From contig WRFU01000007.1 of the NCBI GenBank assembly GCA_009778675.1, forward strand, positions 1 to 39,645: a DNA stretch of 39,645 bases, in the 5' to 3' direction. Origin of the DNA: Candidatus Saccharimonadota bacterium. Its GTDB lineage: Bacteria > Patescibacteriota > Saccharimonadia > Saccharimonadales > Saccharimonadaceae. The translations under genes and the position numbers were made by a program. Shown here piece after piece: positions 12,780-17,312 of the stretch (its first letter is position 1; the number at the start of each line of letters is the position of its first letter). The notes under the pieces were generated by a model. That model saw nothing but the letters and a program-made list of their open reading frames with translations. It had not been told where the DNA came from and searched no databases.

Positions 12780-13164
12780 TGGTGGAGCTGCCGAGCACTG
12801 CCCTCGGGTCCGCACAATTTCACACTACCCGTCTACAAGTTTATCCGATTTTTTATACGTAAAAGTGCGGGCTAAGAACCGGCAAAATCCTAGCACTAAC
12901 GCGTGATAGATTTAACCAAATTTGCCTCACTGCGAACAAATTTGGCGACCAACAAAATATAACACCCACCTAGCCTATGTTGGCAAAGTTACGTGGATGG
13001 TTGCTACAACTCAGGCAGCAACTGTCGCAAAGACAGGTTGGCTAAACAAGTTAGCGAAACTAGCCTTTACTTTTGCAAATACTTTTGGATTTACAATAGA
13101 TTTACGATTCTCATCGACTTGCAAAGTAGCATGTTAACTATACGTCTAAAGCTGATTCAGCCCC
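12780..13164 (-). ncRNA. ssrA: transfer-messenger RNA (tmRNA)
   Basis: A one-piece tmRNA of 385 nt that rescues stalled ribosomes. The acceptor stem pairs GGGGCTG (5' end) with CAGCTCC, followed by A and an encoded CCA. The resume codon is GCA at 13076-13074, with an A four bases before it as in known tmRNAs. The tag has 21 residues, begins AKVKASFANL, ends QPVFATVAA and stops with TGA at 13013-13011. The tRNA-like end is odd: the T-arm is a perfect 5-bp stem (CCGAG/CTCGG) with loop GGCAGTG instead of TTCRANY, and the D-loop region reads AGCTTTAGACG rather than the usual GGNTTCGACG. Other lengths, tag and stems look intact, so I consider it functional. Confidence 0.93.
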
Positions 13165-13168
13165 AACA

Positions 13169-13174
13169 ATTATA
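13169..13174 (-). promoter_or_regulatory. tmRNA -10 element
   Basis: TATAAT at 13174-13169, 4 nt before the mature tmRNA 5' end at 13164. The start of transcription would therefore fall almost at the mature end, leaving little or no 5' leader. I see no good -35 hexamer. Confidence 0.55.
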
Positions 13175-13230
13175 TTTTAGCGTATTTTTATATAAAAATC
13201 AACTTTGCATAACAGCGCCTTTTTGCATAA

Positions 13231-13236
13231 TATAAT
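13231..13236 (+). promoter_or_regulatory. comM -10 element (leaderless)
   Basis: TATAAT directly followed by GCCT and the comM ATG at 13241. An overlapping reading (TTTGCA, 16 nt, CATAAT) also ends at this start. There is no Shine-Dalgarno sequence. Confidence 0.6.
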
Positions 13237-13240
13237 GCCT

Positions 13241-14743
13241 ATGGTCAGTAAAATAATCTCAGCGATACCAATGGGGTATGACGGCGCTTTGGTAGAAATC
13301 GAAGGCGATATGAAAAAGGGGTTGCCTGGCATGCAAATTGTCGGTATGGGTAACAAAACTATTGAAGAAAGCAAAGAACGTGTACGAAGTGCCATTACTA
13401 ACTCTGATTTAGACTTCCCGAGTAAAAAGATCACCATTAACCTAGCGCCAGCCGAGCTACCCAAGGACGGTACTGGCTTGGACTTACCTATTGCGCTTTC
13501 AGTATTGATGCTAAATGGCCAATTAAGGCCTGTGGAGGTCAAAGATAAGTTGTTTGCGGGTGAATTAGCCTTGGATGGCTCTATACGCTCTGTGCGCGGT
13601 ATTATACACATTGTAGAAGCTGCCAAGAAGGCTGGCATTGAAACGGTGTTTATACCGGCAAAGAATTTGGCTCAGGCACAGCTAGTGAAAGGTATCAATA
13701 TTATAGGAGCGACCGATTTACGACAACTATTTTTGCATCTAAAAGGTGAACTGGCGATTCAAAATGACCTTAAACAACCAAATAAAAAATCACCAACTAT
13801 TGATCCAGTAATTCTAGACCACGTATGCGGACAAAATCAGGCTAAACGAGCCTTAACTATTGCTATAAGCGGCCGCCATAACATTTTACTTAATGGACCG
13901 CCAGGGGTAGGTAAAACTATGTTGGCTAAGGTGGCTGTTAATCTTTTGCCTGAATTATCAGACGAAGAAAAGCTTTCTATCACTAAAATACATAGTGTAG
14001 CCGGTATAACAGATGACATTATTCAACAACGCCCCTTTCAATCGCCACACCACACCGCCAGTGTGGTATCTATTGTCGGCGGTGGTAACAAACCAAAGCC
14101 TGGTGATATCAGTTTAGCTAATTATGGTGTGTTGTTTTTGGATGAGCTACCAGAATATCCCAGATCGGTGCTAGAATCGCTTCGCCAACCACTGGAGGAC
14201 AAAGCTATTACTGTAAGCCGTACCAATTATAAAGTACGCTACCCAGCTGATTTTATGCTAATTGCCACTATGAACCCCTGCCCATGTGGCCATTTAGGTG
14301 ATCCTGACAAAGAATGCACCTGTACCACCACCCAAATACTTAATTATCAAAAACGGCTTTCTGGACCACTGTTAGACAGAATTGATATGGTAGTCACGGT
14401 ATCGAAGATCGATAATTCTACCTTGAGTAAATATAAAGCTACCGGTGATGAACAACATCAAGCCGCAATAAGCAGTATTGACAGAGCTTTGCGCCAACAG
14501 ACAAAAAGATATGGTAAACCAGGCGTATACAACAGTGGGTTATCTAGCAAGGATATATCTACCAAACTTAAGCTATCGTCAGAGGCGCAACGTATATTAA
14601 CCCTGGCTTCTAGTAAACTGAATCTTAGTACTAGAGCTTATTTTAAGGTAATTAAAGTAGCTCAGACCATTGCTGACATGGATGAAAGCCCCATAGTCAC
14701 AGATAAACACATCAGTGAAGCTCTACAATACCGAATGAAGTAA
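13241..14743 (+). CDS. comM: YifB/ComM family Mg-chelatase-like AAA+ ATPase
   Basis: A 500-residue YifB/ComM protein. In naturally competent bacteria ComM is a hexameric helicase promoting branch migration of incoming DNA. The N-terminal Lon-like fold contains GLPGMQIVGM and KKITINLAPAELPK. The ATPase core has Walker A GPPGVGKT (219-226) and Walker B GVLFLDE (296-302). A Cys cluster CPCGHLGDPDKECTC (347-361) and a sensor/arginine region SGPLLDRIDM follow, then a C-terminal lid. The frame stays open to a TTG at 13205, but the ATG at 13241 (MVSKIISA) fits the family N-terminus and the TATAAT placed 4 nt upstream. Divergent from tmRNA. With the pili downstream, it supports DNA uptake (inference). 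Confidence 0.93.
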   Translation: MVSKIISAIPMGYDGALVEIEGDMKKGLPGMQIVGMGNKTIEESKERVRSAITNSDLDFPSKKITINLAPAELPKDGTGLDLPIALSVLMLNGQLRPVEVKDKLFAGELALDGSIRSVRGIIHIVEAAKKAGIETVFIPAKNLAQAQLVKGINIIGATDLRQLFLHLKGELAIQNDLKQPNKKSPTIDPVILDHVCGQNQAKRALTIAISGRHNILLNGPPGVGKTMLAKVAVNLLPELSDEEKLSITKIHSVAGITDDIIQQRPFQSPHHTASVVSIVGGGNKPKPGDISLANYGVLFLDELPEYPRSVLESLRQPLEDKAITVSRTNYKVRYPADFMLIATMNPCPCGHLGDPDKECTCTTTQILNYQKRLSGPLLDRIDMVVTVSKIDNSTLSKYKATGDEQHQAAISSIDRALRQQTKRYGKPGVYNSGLSSKDISTKLKLSSEAQRILTLASSKLNLSTRAYFKVIKVAQTIADMDESPIVTDKHISEALQYRMK

Positions 14744-14759
14744 TGGATAGTAGACGTAC

Positions 14760-14788
14760 TTGTGCTACGCTACATTTTTTGCTATTAT
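14760..14788 (+). promoter_or_regulatory. infC-rpmI-rplT promoter
   Basis: TTGTGC (14760-14765), 17 nt, TATTAT (14783-14788). The predicted start is near 14795. This rules out translation from the TTG at 14760 and leaves about 37 nt of leader before the proposed infC start. Confidence 0.7.
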
Positions 14789-14831
14789 CTACCAAGACAA
14801 AGTCACAAGCAAAAGCAGGGAAGGATCAACG

Positions 14832-15338
14832 ATAAAAAACCACGTTCGGATTAACGAAGAAATTCGCAACAGCGAGGTTCGTGTTATTGGCTCTGATGGT
14901 CAGCAACTAGGGTTAATGTCTAGCGCTAAAGCACTAGAACTAGCTCGTGAAGCGGATGTCGACTTAGTTGAGATATCACCTACAGCTGACCCACCTGTGG
15001 TAAAAATCATTGACTGGGGTAAATATCAGTACCAGAAAATGAAGGAACCTGCCAAAAACCATAAGAAGCCAAGAGCTAACGAGTTAAAGCAGATGCGGCT
15101 AGGTCTAAAGATCGGTGCTAACGATCTGGACATTAAAATAAGAAAGATCAAAAAGTTCTTACAAGATGGCTATCGGGTTAAAATTATGATAGTCTTTAAA
15201 GGGCGTGAAATGGCGCATAAAGAAATCGGCAACGAGTTAATGGACAAAACCCTAAACCTACTCGGTGACGAAATTGCGATTGATCAAACCCCTCAGATGG
15301 CCGGTAGGAATCTGAGCGTTAGTATAAGGAGAAAGTAA
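14832..15338 (+). CDS. infC: translation initiation factor IF-3 with a likely AUA start
   Basis: IF-3 of 168 residues if it starts at the ATA codon at 14832. The N-domain begins KNHVRINEEIRNSEVRVIG, the linker is lysine-rich, and the C-domain has KQMRLGLKIGANDLDIKIRKIKKFL and FKGREMAHKEIG, the family signature. Between the promoter and the conserved RINEEI no in-frame ATG, GTG or TTG exists. GGGAAGGA lies 6 nt before ATA, an ideal distance. E. coli infC uses AUU and is self-regulated because IF-3 rejects such codons, so the same control is likely here. The next ATG would remove much of the N-domain. The stop overlaps the rpmI start (TAATG). Confidence 0.93.
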   Translation: MKNHVRINEEIRNSEVRVIGSDGQQLGLMSSAKALELAREADVDLVEISPTADPPVVKIIDWGKYQYQKMKEPAKNHKKPRANELKQMRLGLKIGANDLDIKIRKIKKFLQDGYRVKIMIVFKGREMAHKEIGNELMDKTLNLLGDEIAIDQTPQMAGRNLSVSIRRK

Positions 15339-15532
15339 TGCCAAAGCTAAAAACCCACAAAGGAACTGCCAAACGGGTAAAAATAACCCCGACTGGCAAG
15401 ATTTTACGCGAACGAGCGTTTGGTAACCATATTTTGGCGAAAAAAAGCAAAGCCCGTAAACGTAACATTAAAACCAATGCCCAAGTTAGTGGTAGCACTG
15501 CTAAGAATATCAAGAAAGCCCTAGGAGTATAA
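15338..15532 (+). CDS. rpmI: 50S ribosomal protein L35
   Basis: A 64-residue, very basic protein with the L35 pattern [21 protein letters not shown] at the start and RKRNIK in the middle. Its ATG overlaps the infC stop by one base and AAGGAG lies within the infC end, so translation is likely coupled. Second gene of the conserved infC-rpmI-rplT operon. Confidence 0.96.
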
Positions 15533-15534
15533 CT

Positions 15535-15876
15535 ATGAGAGTAAAACGTGGCGTTGCAGCCCGTGCTAAGCACAAAAAGATACTAAAACAAGCCCGTGGT
15601 ATGCAACACGATCGTACACGGTCGTTCAAGCAAGCTAAACAGGGTGTAATTAAAGCCCTACGTTATTCATACCGCGACCGACGTAACAAAAAGCGCGATA
15701 TTAGGCGTCTATGGATCACCAGGATCAACAATGCGGCTAAATTGCATGACATCTCATATAGTAAGCTAATCGCCGGTTTAAAGGCCAATAACGTTGAATT
15801 AGACCGTAAAGTACTATCAGAACTGGCTGTAAACGAACCTAAAGCCTTCGAAGCAGTAGTAAAAGCTGTTAAATAA
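15535..15876 (+). CDS. rplT: 50S ribosomal protein L20
   Basis: A 113-residue L20. [20 protein letters not shown] and [24 protein letters not shown] are the family signatures, as is [25 protein letters not shown]. It binds 23S rRNA early in 50S assembly, and in several bacteria it represses its own operon; no obvious L20 leader site was found here. It begins 2 nt after rpmI with AGGAG 7 nt upstream. A terminator follows at 15894-15926. Confidence 0.97.
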
Positions 15877-15893
15877 GTAAATTTAGCTAGCAA

Positions 15894-15926
15894 ACTAAAA
15901 CCTCCCCGTTTAGGGGAGATTTTAGT
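15894..15926. terminator. terminator after rplT, also behind rnpB
   Basis: CTCCCC-GTTTA-GGGGAG, extended by flanking ACTAAAA / ATTTTAGT. It has T-tracts on both strands and so can end both the rplT operon (plus) and rnpB (minus), which converge here. Confidence 0.8.
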
Positions 15927-15927
15927 T

Positions 15928-16267
15928 GAGCCTGCCGCATAAGCCGGGTTTTGTCGAGGGTAATCATCTATCTAGTCATATAGTCGCCCATATGATCGAG
16001 CGGTAAACAATTCGCTAGCGGATCACTATTGATGCGAATTTCCTTGCAGCCAACAGGGTTTACCCCCCAGACATGTCACCATATCTGGCTGTGAGCTCTT
16101 ACCTCACTCTTTTCACCTTTTCCTACTACGAAAGTAACAGGTAGTCTAAGTTTCTGTGGCACTTTCCCTAGGATTGCTCCCGGTTGCCGTTAACAACTGT
16201 CGTATCCTTTGCTGCCCGGACTTTCCTCTTAATAACTAACGCTACTAAGCGATTACCTAGCAGGCTC
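15928..16267 (-). ncRNA. rnpB: RNase P RNA, bacterial type A
   Basis: About 340 nt. P1 pairs GAGCCTGC (5') with GCAGGCTC (3'). Signature sequences appear in order: GAGGAAAGTCCGGGC (CR-I/P4 region), CCACAGAAA, GAGGTAAGAGCTCAC (CR-II/III region), GGGTAAACCC (L15 area that contacts the tRNA CCA) and ACAAAACCCGGCTTA (CR-V). The RNA is the catalytic part of RNase P, which matures tRNA 5' ends. Its promoter lies at the end of the upstream RNase HI gene. Confidence 0.95.
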
Positions 16268-16273
16268 TGGTGA

Positions 16274-16302
16274 AGTATACTATTTTACAGCGTGCTCGTC
16301 AA
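16274..16302 (-). promoter_or_regulatory. rnpB promoter overlapping the end of the RNase HI gene
   Basis: TTGACG (16302-16297), 17 nt, TATACT (16279-16274), with RNA starting about 6 nt later. The -35 and spacer lie inside the last codons of the preceding gene. Confidence 0.8.
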
Positions 16303-17140
16303 GAACGCGATTTACTTCACTGTCGGCCTGTACGTTTTTATCGCGTGTAACATGTTTAAAAGCCGCTGATTCTATTTTTTTAAGTAGTAGGTTGATTTCA
16401 TCATAAATCGGCCACAATTCCCTGTTTTTAATCTTGTAAGTACCATTCATGTGCCCTGCCAACATTAGGTTATCTACCTTAAATACTACCTTATTTAGCC
16501 CCAGTTGGATGGCCTTTTCTACCCCTAACTTTAGGGCTATATATTCAGCTTGGCGGCTATTGGTAATACCTATAAACTCGCCACCCCTGTCTAGTACTTC
16601 ACCCTGTGGCGACAATATATAATAACCAGCCGCCGAAGGCCCCGGGTTGCCCCTAGAGCCACCGTCGGTATAGACAACAGCGTAATCAGGCAAGTCAGTG
16701 TCTAGTTCAAAGTGATGTTCTGCGCCTTCTGCGACACCTTTTTCGACTACACCTAAAATATAGGAAGACTCTGACATGAGTTCGATATTTGGTATATCGA
16801 CCTGTTTAGCCCAAACTGATGTTAGGTATTGATCGTGATTAATATCAATTTTGGCAGATGCTAACGTAACCCCAAAGACAATAAACAGGCTGGCCTGGGT
16901 GGGATCTTCGGCCTTGGCCAGTGCTATAACATCTAACAAACTGACACTTTGAATAGTGCTATTTAAATAATCGTGTACCAAACGAGCAACAGCATCTTCT
17001 GGCTGCTCGCCAATTTCTAATTTACCGCTTAAAAACTCGTATTGGCGGGGCTGTTCGGCATTAAGTCTATCTTTTTGCAGCAGCAATAAGTCACCTTCGT
17101 GATTGCGGATTATGGCTACAACTCTAATTCTTTGTTTCAT
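16280..17140 (-). CDS. Nudix-like domain fused to RNase HI
   Basis: A 286-residue two-domain protein. Residues 1-140 have the Nudix fold pattern (RIRVVAIIRNHEGDLLLLQKD), but the Nudix box is degenerate: G39 and E45 are there, while the REUXEEXGU half reads RLVHDYLNS, so hydrolase activity is doubtful. Residues 151-286 are a type-1 RNase H domain: YTDGGSRGNPGPSAAGYY, and the four acidic residues Asp159, Glu199, Asp223 and Asp273. It should cut RNA in RNA-DNA hybrids; the Nudix-like part may bind a nucleotide or position a substrate (inference). There is no Shine-Dalgarno sequence at the ATG. A structured RNA lies directly upstream and rnpB directly downstream. Confidence 0.88.
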   Translation of the reverse strand: MKQRIRVVAIIRNHEGDLLLLQKDRLNAEQPRQYEFLSGKLEIGEQPEDAVARLVHDYLNSTIQSVSLLDVIALAKAEDPTQASLFIVFGVTLASAKIDINHDQYLTSVWAKQVDIPNIELMSESSYILGVVEKGVAEGAEHHFELDTDLPDYAVVYTDGGSRGNPGPSAAGYYILSPQGEVLDRGGEFIGITNSRQAEYIALKLGVEKAIQLGLNKVVFKVDNLMLAGHMNGTYKIKNRELWPIYDEINLLLKKIESAAFKHVTRDKNVQADSEVNRVLDEHAVK

Positions 17141-17159
17141 AAACTTAACTAATAAAATT

Positions 17160-17297
17160 AAGGGTCTCTAGCGAGCGTTGATACTCCCTGCTGTATGTGC
17201 AAGGTGGGTAAGCTCGCTAGTCTAACCCCACGAGGTTAGTCGTATTGAGCTCCCTATCATGATTATTCAGGAAAATCATATACGCTCGCTTTGAGAC
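17160..17297 (-). ncRNA. structured leader or small RNA, four-way junction
   Basis: About 138 nt upstream of the Nudix-RNase HI gene. The closing helix pairs GUCUC plus AGCGAGCG (17297-17283) with CGCUCGCU plus GAGAC (17177-17164). Inside it are three arms: AUGAUU/AAUCAU, GGGAGCUC/GAGCUUACCC carrying CUAACC/GGUUAG, and CCUUGC-ACAUACA-GCAGGG. A competing 9-bp helix CTAGCGAGC/GCTCGCTAG (17220-17212 with 17176-17168) excludes the closing helix and lies just before a U-rich run. TGCTATACT (extended -10, 17312-17304) places the transcript start at the closing helix. It matches no riboswitch or RNA family that I can recall. Confidence 0.55.
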
Positions 17298-17303
17298 TCT
17301 TCT

Positions 17304-17312
17304 AGTATAGCA
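17304..17312 (-). promoter_or_regulatory. extended -10 promoter of the structured RNA
   Basis: TGC followed by TATACT, ending at 17304, so transcription would begin near 17297, the first base of the closing helix. The -35 region is weak, which is tolerated with an extended -10. Confidence 0.55.

Follow-up and report, generated by a model that had tools for sequence, protein, structure and literature searches.

A divergent, probable 6S RNA upstream of a Nudix-RNase H gene in a Candidatus Saccharimonadota bacterium

Introduction

What is the structured RNA encoded just upstream of a Nudix-RNase H gene in a Candidatus Saccharimonadota bacterium (GenBank assembly GCA_009778675.1, contig WRFU01000007.1)? 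In the 39,645-nt stretch of DNA that we analysed (hereafter the window), the minus strand reads in the order M50 peptidase gene (17953-17324), RNA (17299-17160), Nudix-RNase H gene (17140-16280) and RNase P RNA gene (16268-15923), and the Nudix-RNase H gene starts 19 nt 3' of the RNA. A first-pass annotation had read the RNA as an undescribed structured element with two exclusive folds, resembling a riboswitch or attenuator of the downstream gene, with a nucleotide as a conceivable ligand. Here we ask whether this RNA controls its neighbor or is a gene in its own right, and we conclude that it is very probably a divergent, unannotated 6S RNA (ssrS) of the organism.

The two domains encoded by the gene at 17140-16280 were identified by Pfam. 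This Nudix domain fused to RNase H (window 16280-17140) adjoins RNase P RNA, and much of the family has the two domains fused; matches from genomes farther away in the order cover mainly the RNase H half. Within 4.5 kb of the minus strand (12780-17299) lie three housekeeping RNAs, namely tmRNA (12780-13164; an Rfam match of 91 bits that was missed by ARAGORN), RNase P RNA (15923-16268) and the candidate 6S RNA.

Results

A stable folded RNA lies between the two protein genes

When the segment of the window from 17312 to 17141 was folded alone, it reached -56.9 kcal/mol (z = -5.4), a stability that no sequence among 200 dinucleotide shuffles attained. The predicted folded RNA is therefore real, about 140 nt long and on the minus strand. 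We modelled its gene as 140 nt at 17160-17299 (minus strand, p1 = 17299) using the covariance models R1 and R2 described below, its homologues being matched by the Rfam 6S model.

All parts of the fold described here are on the minus strand. Fold and covariation together define a closing stem, with its 5' strand (GUCUC .. AGCGAGCGU) at 17282-17297 and its 3' strand (ACGCUCGCU .. GAGAC) at 17164-17178. A closing helix of 13 bp had been proposed; the helix is present, and its length is 14 bp, made up of 5 bp (GUCUC/GAGAC) and 9 bp (AGCGAGCGU/ACGCUCGCU). The next helix, the downstream helix P2, pairs UGAUUUUCCUG (5' strand, 17268-17278) with CAGGGAGUAUCA (3' strand, 17179-17190), and two-sided changes were seen in 9 of its 9 pairs. 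Beyond P2 the fold opens into a central bubble, whose 5' side spans 17255-17267, and ends in an apical arm (17206-17254; GGG(A)GCUC ... GAGCUUACCC, capped by a CGUG loop) that is supported by covariation and corresponds to the 6S consensus GGGagcc .. ggcaCCCACCU. The 3' strand of P2 is also used by a 3' central-bubble hairpin (CCUUGC-loop-GCAGGG, 17186-17204). The three inner arms described earlier are seen in one of two folds of nearly equal energy, as a 7-bp 5' hairpin, the apical arm and the 6-bp 3' hairpin.

Intermediate genomes connect the RNA to the 6S family

Against the window copy, the 6S model RF00013 gave no match even at an E value of 10, and neither did any other Rfam class. In a permissive Rfam scan of 18 relatives, RF00013 matched at full length (1-187), on the right strand and exactly at the RNA in five, with 25-32 bits and E values of 0.0094-0.46 (0.0016-0.0038 for three in a second search). 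The suggested Rfam check thus returned nothing for the window copy and sub-threshold, full-length 6S matches for its relatives, and the idea of an undescribed class gives way to a known family. Family members score no higher than 32 bits against RF00013, all below its curated cut-off of 46.4 bits, which we used as the operational limit. The 6S consensus auaGGGagcc..ggcaCCCACCUgg aligns with the most conserved stretch of the relatives; in the bubble-flanking sequence GGG..CACCCACCU..GG the relatives align to the RF00013 consensus, and the window copy carries UACCCACCUUGC.

Covariance model R1 was trained on 22 sequences of the family under the 6S-type pairing. The window copy scores 83.6 bits with R1 and 81.5 bits with R2, matches that are partly by construction, as this copy was among the training rows. 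RF00013, run on 287 genomes sampled from the phylum, found 22 places, three of them above the cut-off (55-60 bits, in three genomes outside the family). R1 coincided with it in position and strand at 17 of the 22 and matched three more in a local search, bringing the agreement to 20 of 22; two of the three places above the cut-off were also matched by R1. Of the 20 RF00013 loci that we retrieved, 12 share another trait with the window, a co-oriented M50 peptidase gene immediately upstream; L067 and L069, both above the cut-off, are among these 12. Our main argument is that the RNA is homologous to 6S RNA because two models of different origin meet at the same places, beside the same neighbor gene. 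E. coli ssrS was not recognised by R1 or R2 (for R2 also with filters off), so the homology to 6S rests on the intermediate genomes.

We considered whether the RNA could instead be a distinct RNA-polymerase-binding RNA that is 6S-like but acts in another mode, such as Ms1-like binding of core polymerase without sigma. Ms1 of Actinobacteria, an RNA that would be recognised by core binding and actinobacterial synteny, shares with our RNA a 6S-like structure and RNA polymerase as the (here expected) target. It is an example of a 6S-like RNA whose partner is the core enzyme (PMC9130861), and in this it differs from the sigma-A binding expected of our RNA. The score of the window copy under the 6S cut-off, and the ability of the lineage to form a 5' bubble hairpin overlapping P2, would suit such a mode. 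However, our RNA retains the 6S consensus CACCCACCU and the GGG that partners it, as well as the arrangement of P2 and 3' hairpin, and the intermediates exceed the 6S cut-off. We regard this reading as very unlikely.

The 6S-type structure covaries across the order and phylum

We compared the locus among relatives. Nearly all readable family members have the M50 peptidase upstream and, in the gap that follows, 130-160 nt of clearly related RNA. Their common pattern begins with the -10 box, a GUCCC closing stem, UAUGAUUUUCCU, GAUAGGGAGUUC and a variable stem with a YGNG loop, and continues with GAACACCCACCUUGC..GCGGGGAAUAUC and then the 3' closing strand. R1 found matches in 176 of 198 genomes of the order, at a single place in nearly all, and in 98 of the 287 genomes sampled from the phylum. 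A transposon-like repeat with terminal inverted repeats was ruled out; the RNA is single copy, and its own genome gives only the self-match as significant.

In 67 sequences aligned to R1, 91.7% of cells in the 6S fold are paired (67.8% in shuffles and 40-58% in slid controls), a value somewhat biased in favor of that structure, to which the alignment was fitted. Two-sided changes occur in 33 of the 35 pairs, so that the check for conserved pairing and compensatory changes in relatives came out positive. The closing stem covaries, its two helices having 95.5% and 85.7% of cells paired. In the apical arm two GGG/CCC pairs are invariant in the 67 sequences and the upper arm covaries strongly.

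The RNA gene is independent of the Nudix-RNase H gene

A -10 promoter box, TATACT (17304-17309, minus strand), ends 4 nt upstream of the modelled 5' end of the RNA, and TATAAT or a motif with one mismatch to it precedes the closing stem by 3-6 nt at 26 of 26 family loci. This near-fixed distance, together with a tRNA gene that can part the RNA from the next gene, marks a free-standing gene, which, judging from sequence, probably has an independent transcript started at a promoter of the sigma-A type. At the other end, a U-rich stretch after the closing stem (17150-17161, minus strand) is a weak terminator candidate that was not flagged in a terminator scan; GGGACUUUUU stands at this position in some relatives, and in several loci the terminator is weak or absent.

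These features bear on the proposal that the RNA is a cis-acting, nucleotide-sensing riboswitch or attenuator controlling the Nudix-RNase H gene. Its appeal lies in the 19 nt that separate RNA and gene in the window, in the two exclusive folds and the U-rich stretch, and in an arrangement of M50 peptidase, RNA and Nudix-RNase H that is frequent among family members. Of 61 related genomes searched, 55 gave a homologue of the Nudix-RNase H protein. Against this proposal, family loci place the Nudix start anywhere from 12 to 223 nt after the RNA, and at 7 of 26 of them (L009, L011, L012, L018, L019, L025 and L027), though not in the window, a tRNA-Pro(GGG) gene stands between the two. At 6 of the 30 best loci of the order, and likewise at most phylum loci, the RNA is kept and Nudix-RNase H was undetected within about 1.5 kb. 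The switching helix built on AGCGAGC is not conserved (9 bp in the window genome only, 2-7 bp in relatives), and the RNA family is identifiable as 6S. With its own promoter motif, the RNA is highly improbable as an attenuator of the Nudix gene, and the conceivable nucleotide ligand loses its basis, since relatives of the RNA match 6S and the Nudix gene is absent at some RNA loci.

The tRNA-Pro(GGG) gene of locus L027 (about 1290-1455) appears, relative to its counterparts, to hold an insertion of some 115 nt around the D-loop, and the tRNA that ARAGORN predicts there is a shortened one (1381-1451); the insertion could be an intron, or the gene could be broken.

The conserved exclusive folds are those of 6S RNA

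The earlier suggestion of two mutually exclusive folds holds for P2 and the 3' central-bubble hairpin, and the AGCGAGC pair that it named is not the conserved one. The competing 9-bp helix, CUAGCGAGC (17212-17220, minus strand) with GCUCGCUAG (17176-17168), is present exactly as described, and its 9 bp exceed the mean of 4.2 in shuffled sequences, so that the shared strand can form either pairing. Among the 25 relatives tested, one reaches 7 bp at the same place and the others have at most 2-6 bp, and the helix is therefore without evolutionary support; by sequence comparison it is a private feature of the window genome. All relatives have a closing helix of the same kind, with longest uninterrupted Watson-Crick runs of 5-10 bp. 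The U-rich run noted near the competing helix is there (UUAAUUUUAUU), interrupted by an A.

The two forms of the window RNA are practically equal in energy, at -52.5 kcal/mol with P2 and -52.3 kcal/mol with the 3' hairpin, and have ensemble probabilities of about 0.41 and 0.55, respectively. The 3' hairpin has 81.9% of cells paired in the 67 sequences. These alignments indicate that the exclusive folds preserved by evolution are the 6S ones, P2 and the 3' central-bubble hairpin. On the other side of the bubble, 17280-17274 can pair with 17264-17258 to form a 5' bubble hairpin that takes up the 5' strand of P2. Taken together, the alternative hairpins of the 5' and the 3' bubble have 82.4% of cells paired, with weaker covariation than the 6S fold. 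We also found a collapse-type pairing of 4 bp, GAUA/UAUC, between the distal 5' bubble and the 3' strand of P2, which is kept mainly within the family.

Discussion

By analogy with known 6S RNAs, we propose that this rod of about 140 nt, with its closing stem, helix P2, open central bubble and apical arm, would mimic an open promoter with its bubble and capture the sigma-A RNA polymerase holoenzyme as growth slows. When nucleotides return, the polymerase would copy the 5' strand of the bubble into a short pRNA, and P2 would be opened; its freed 3' strand could then form the CCUUGC/GCAGGG hairpin, and the polymerase would be released. Polymerase binding, pRNA synthesis, their timing and the transcript ends are predicted here from this analogy. 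Given the position of the bubble beside P2, and as in E. coli and B. subtilis, the pRNA would be expected to start opposite the 5' bubble by P2, near 17265 on the plus strand, and to read 5'-AUUCAGGAAAAUCAUA.. (17265-17280, plus strand; the complement of the 6S template).

The RNA resembles 6S RNA/SsrS (RF00013) in its rod of closing stem, P2, central bubble and apical arm, in the GGG..CACCCACCU sequence conserved around the bubble, in its own promoter and single copy, and in the exclusivity of P2 and the 3' central-bubble hairpin. It differs in its length (about 140 nt compared with about 180-200), in scores below the Rfam cut-off for every family member searched, in a 5' bubble hairpin overlapping P2 that is predicted in most family members, and in its location after an M50 peptidase gene rather than beside ygfA/fau. 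Published 6S RNAs open P2 as the pRNA is made; the freed 3' strand then enters a 3'-bubble hairpin in gamma-proteobacteria, or a central bubble collapse helix forms, as in B. subtilis and A. aeolicus (PMC8876501). The window RNA has the parts for release of the gamma-proteobacterial type, plus a 4-bp GAUA/UAUC version of the collapse helix. As in the release hairpin of E. coli 6S, the 3' hairpin uses the 3' strand of P2 and excludes it, although it has 6 bp here and 9 bp in gamma-proteobacteria (PMC8876501). As in B. subtilis 6S-1, a short 3'-bubble hairpin is predicted already in the free RNA, and the short collapse-type pairing recalls both 6S-1 and A. aeolicus 6S (PMC8876501), although here it is a predicted pairing of about 4 bp that is poorly kept outside the family.

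One tentative extension, which we consider unlikely though worth stating, is that these RNAs represent a compact, phylum-wide Patescibacteria 6S type, poised between folds of equal energy and with a 5' bubble hairpin overlapping P2, whose release, compared with that in E. coli or B. subtilis, may need a shorter pRNA or follow its steps in a different sequence.

The lineage appears to have lost much else. No Ffh was found in 31 genomes, and 61 genomes gave only four marginal SRP54-domain matches (21.3-22.8 bits); in the relatives searched, no SRP RNA scored at or above the Rfam cut-off, and there was one weak match of 22.5 bits (in G039). That our RNA might itself be the SRP RNA of the lineage, none other being found with RF00169 or RF01854 at a credible level in relatives, can be dismissed, as the protein partner Ffh is also missing and the symmetric-loop motif generally known from SRP was not seen in the alignment. 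Among related reduced genomes, those of Parcubacteria and of many CPR bacteria are reported to have lost the SRP (PMC4508563, PMC8080830).

Among the open-licence papers that we searched, we found none describing 6S RNA in either Saccharibacteria or Patescibacteria. Cultured Saccharibacteria have Actinobacteria as their hosts. As these are reported to be without 6S RNA (PMC9130861), host and epibiont may regulate their polymerases differently. The new finding is a 6S RNA that is phylum-wide, escapes the standard model in this lineage, and occurs in very reduced genomes without an SRP; our covariance model finds 6S RNAs that Rfam's missed in most genomes of the order and in a third of the phylum sample. 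A global regulator of transcription is thereby added to organisms with genomes of about 0.8 Mb from which much else, including the SRP, has been lost, an addition suggesting that control of polymerase by 6S RNA is one of the last regulators that such genomes give up.
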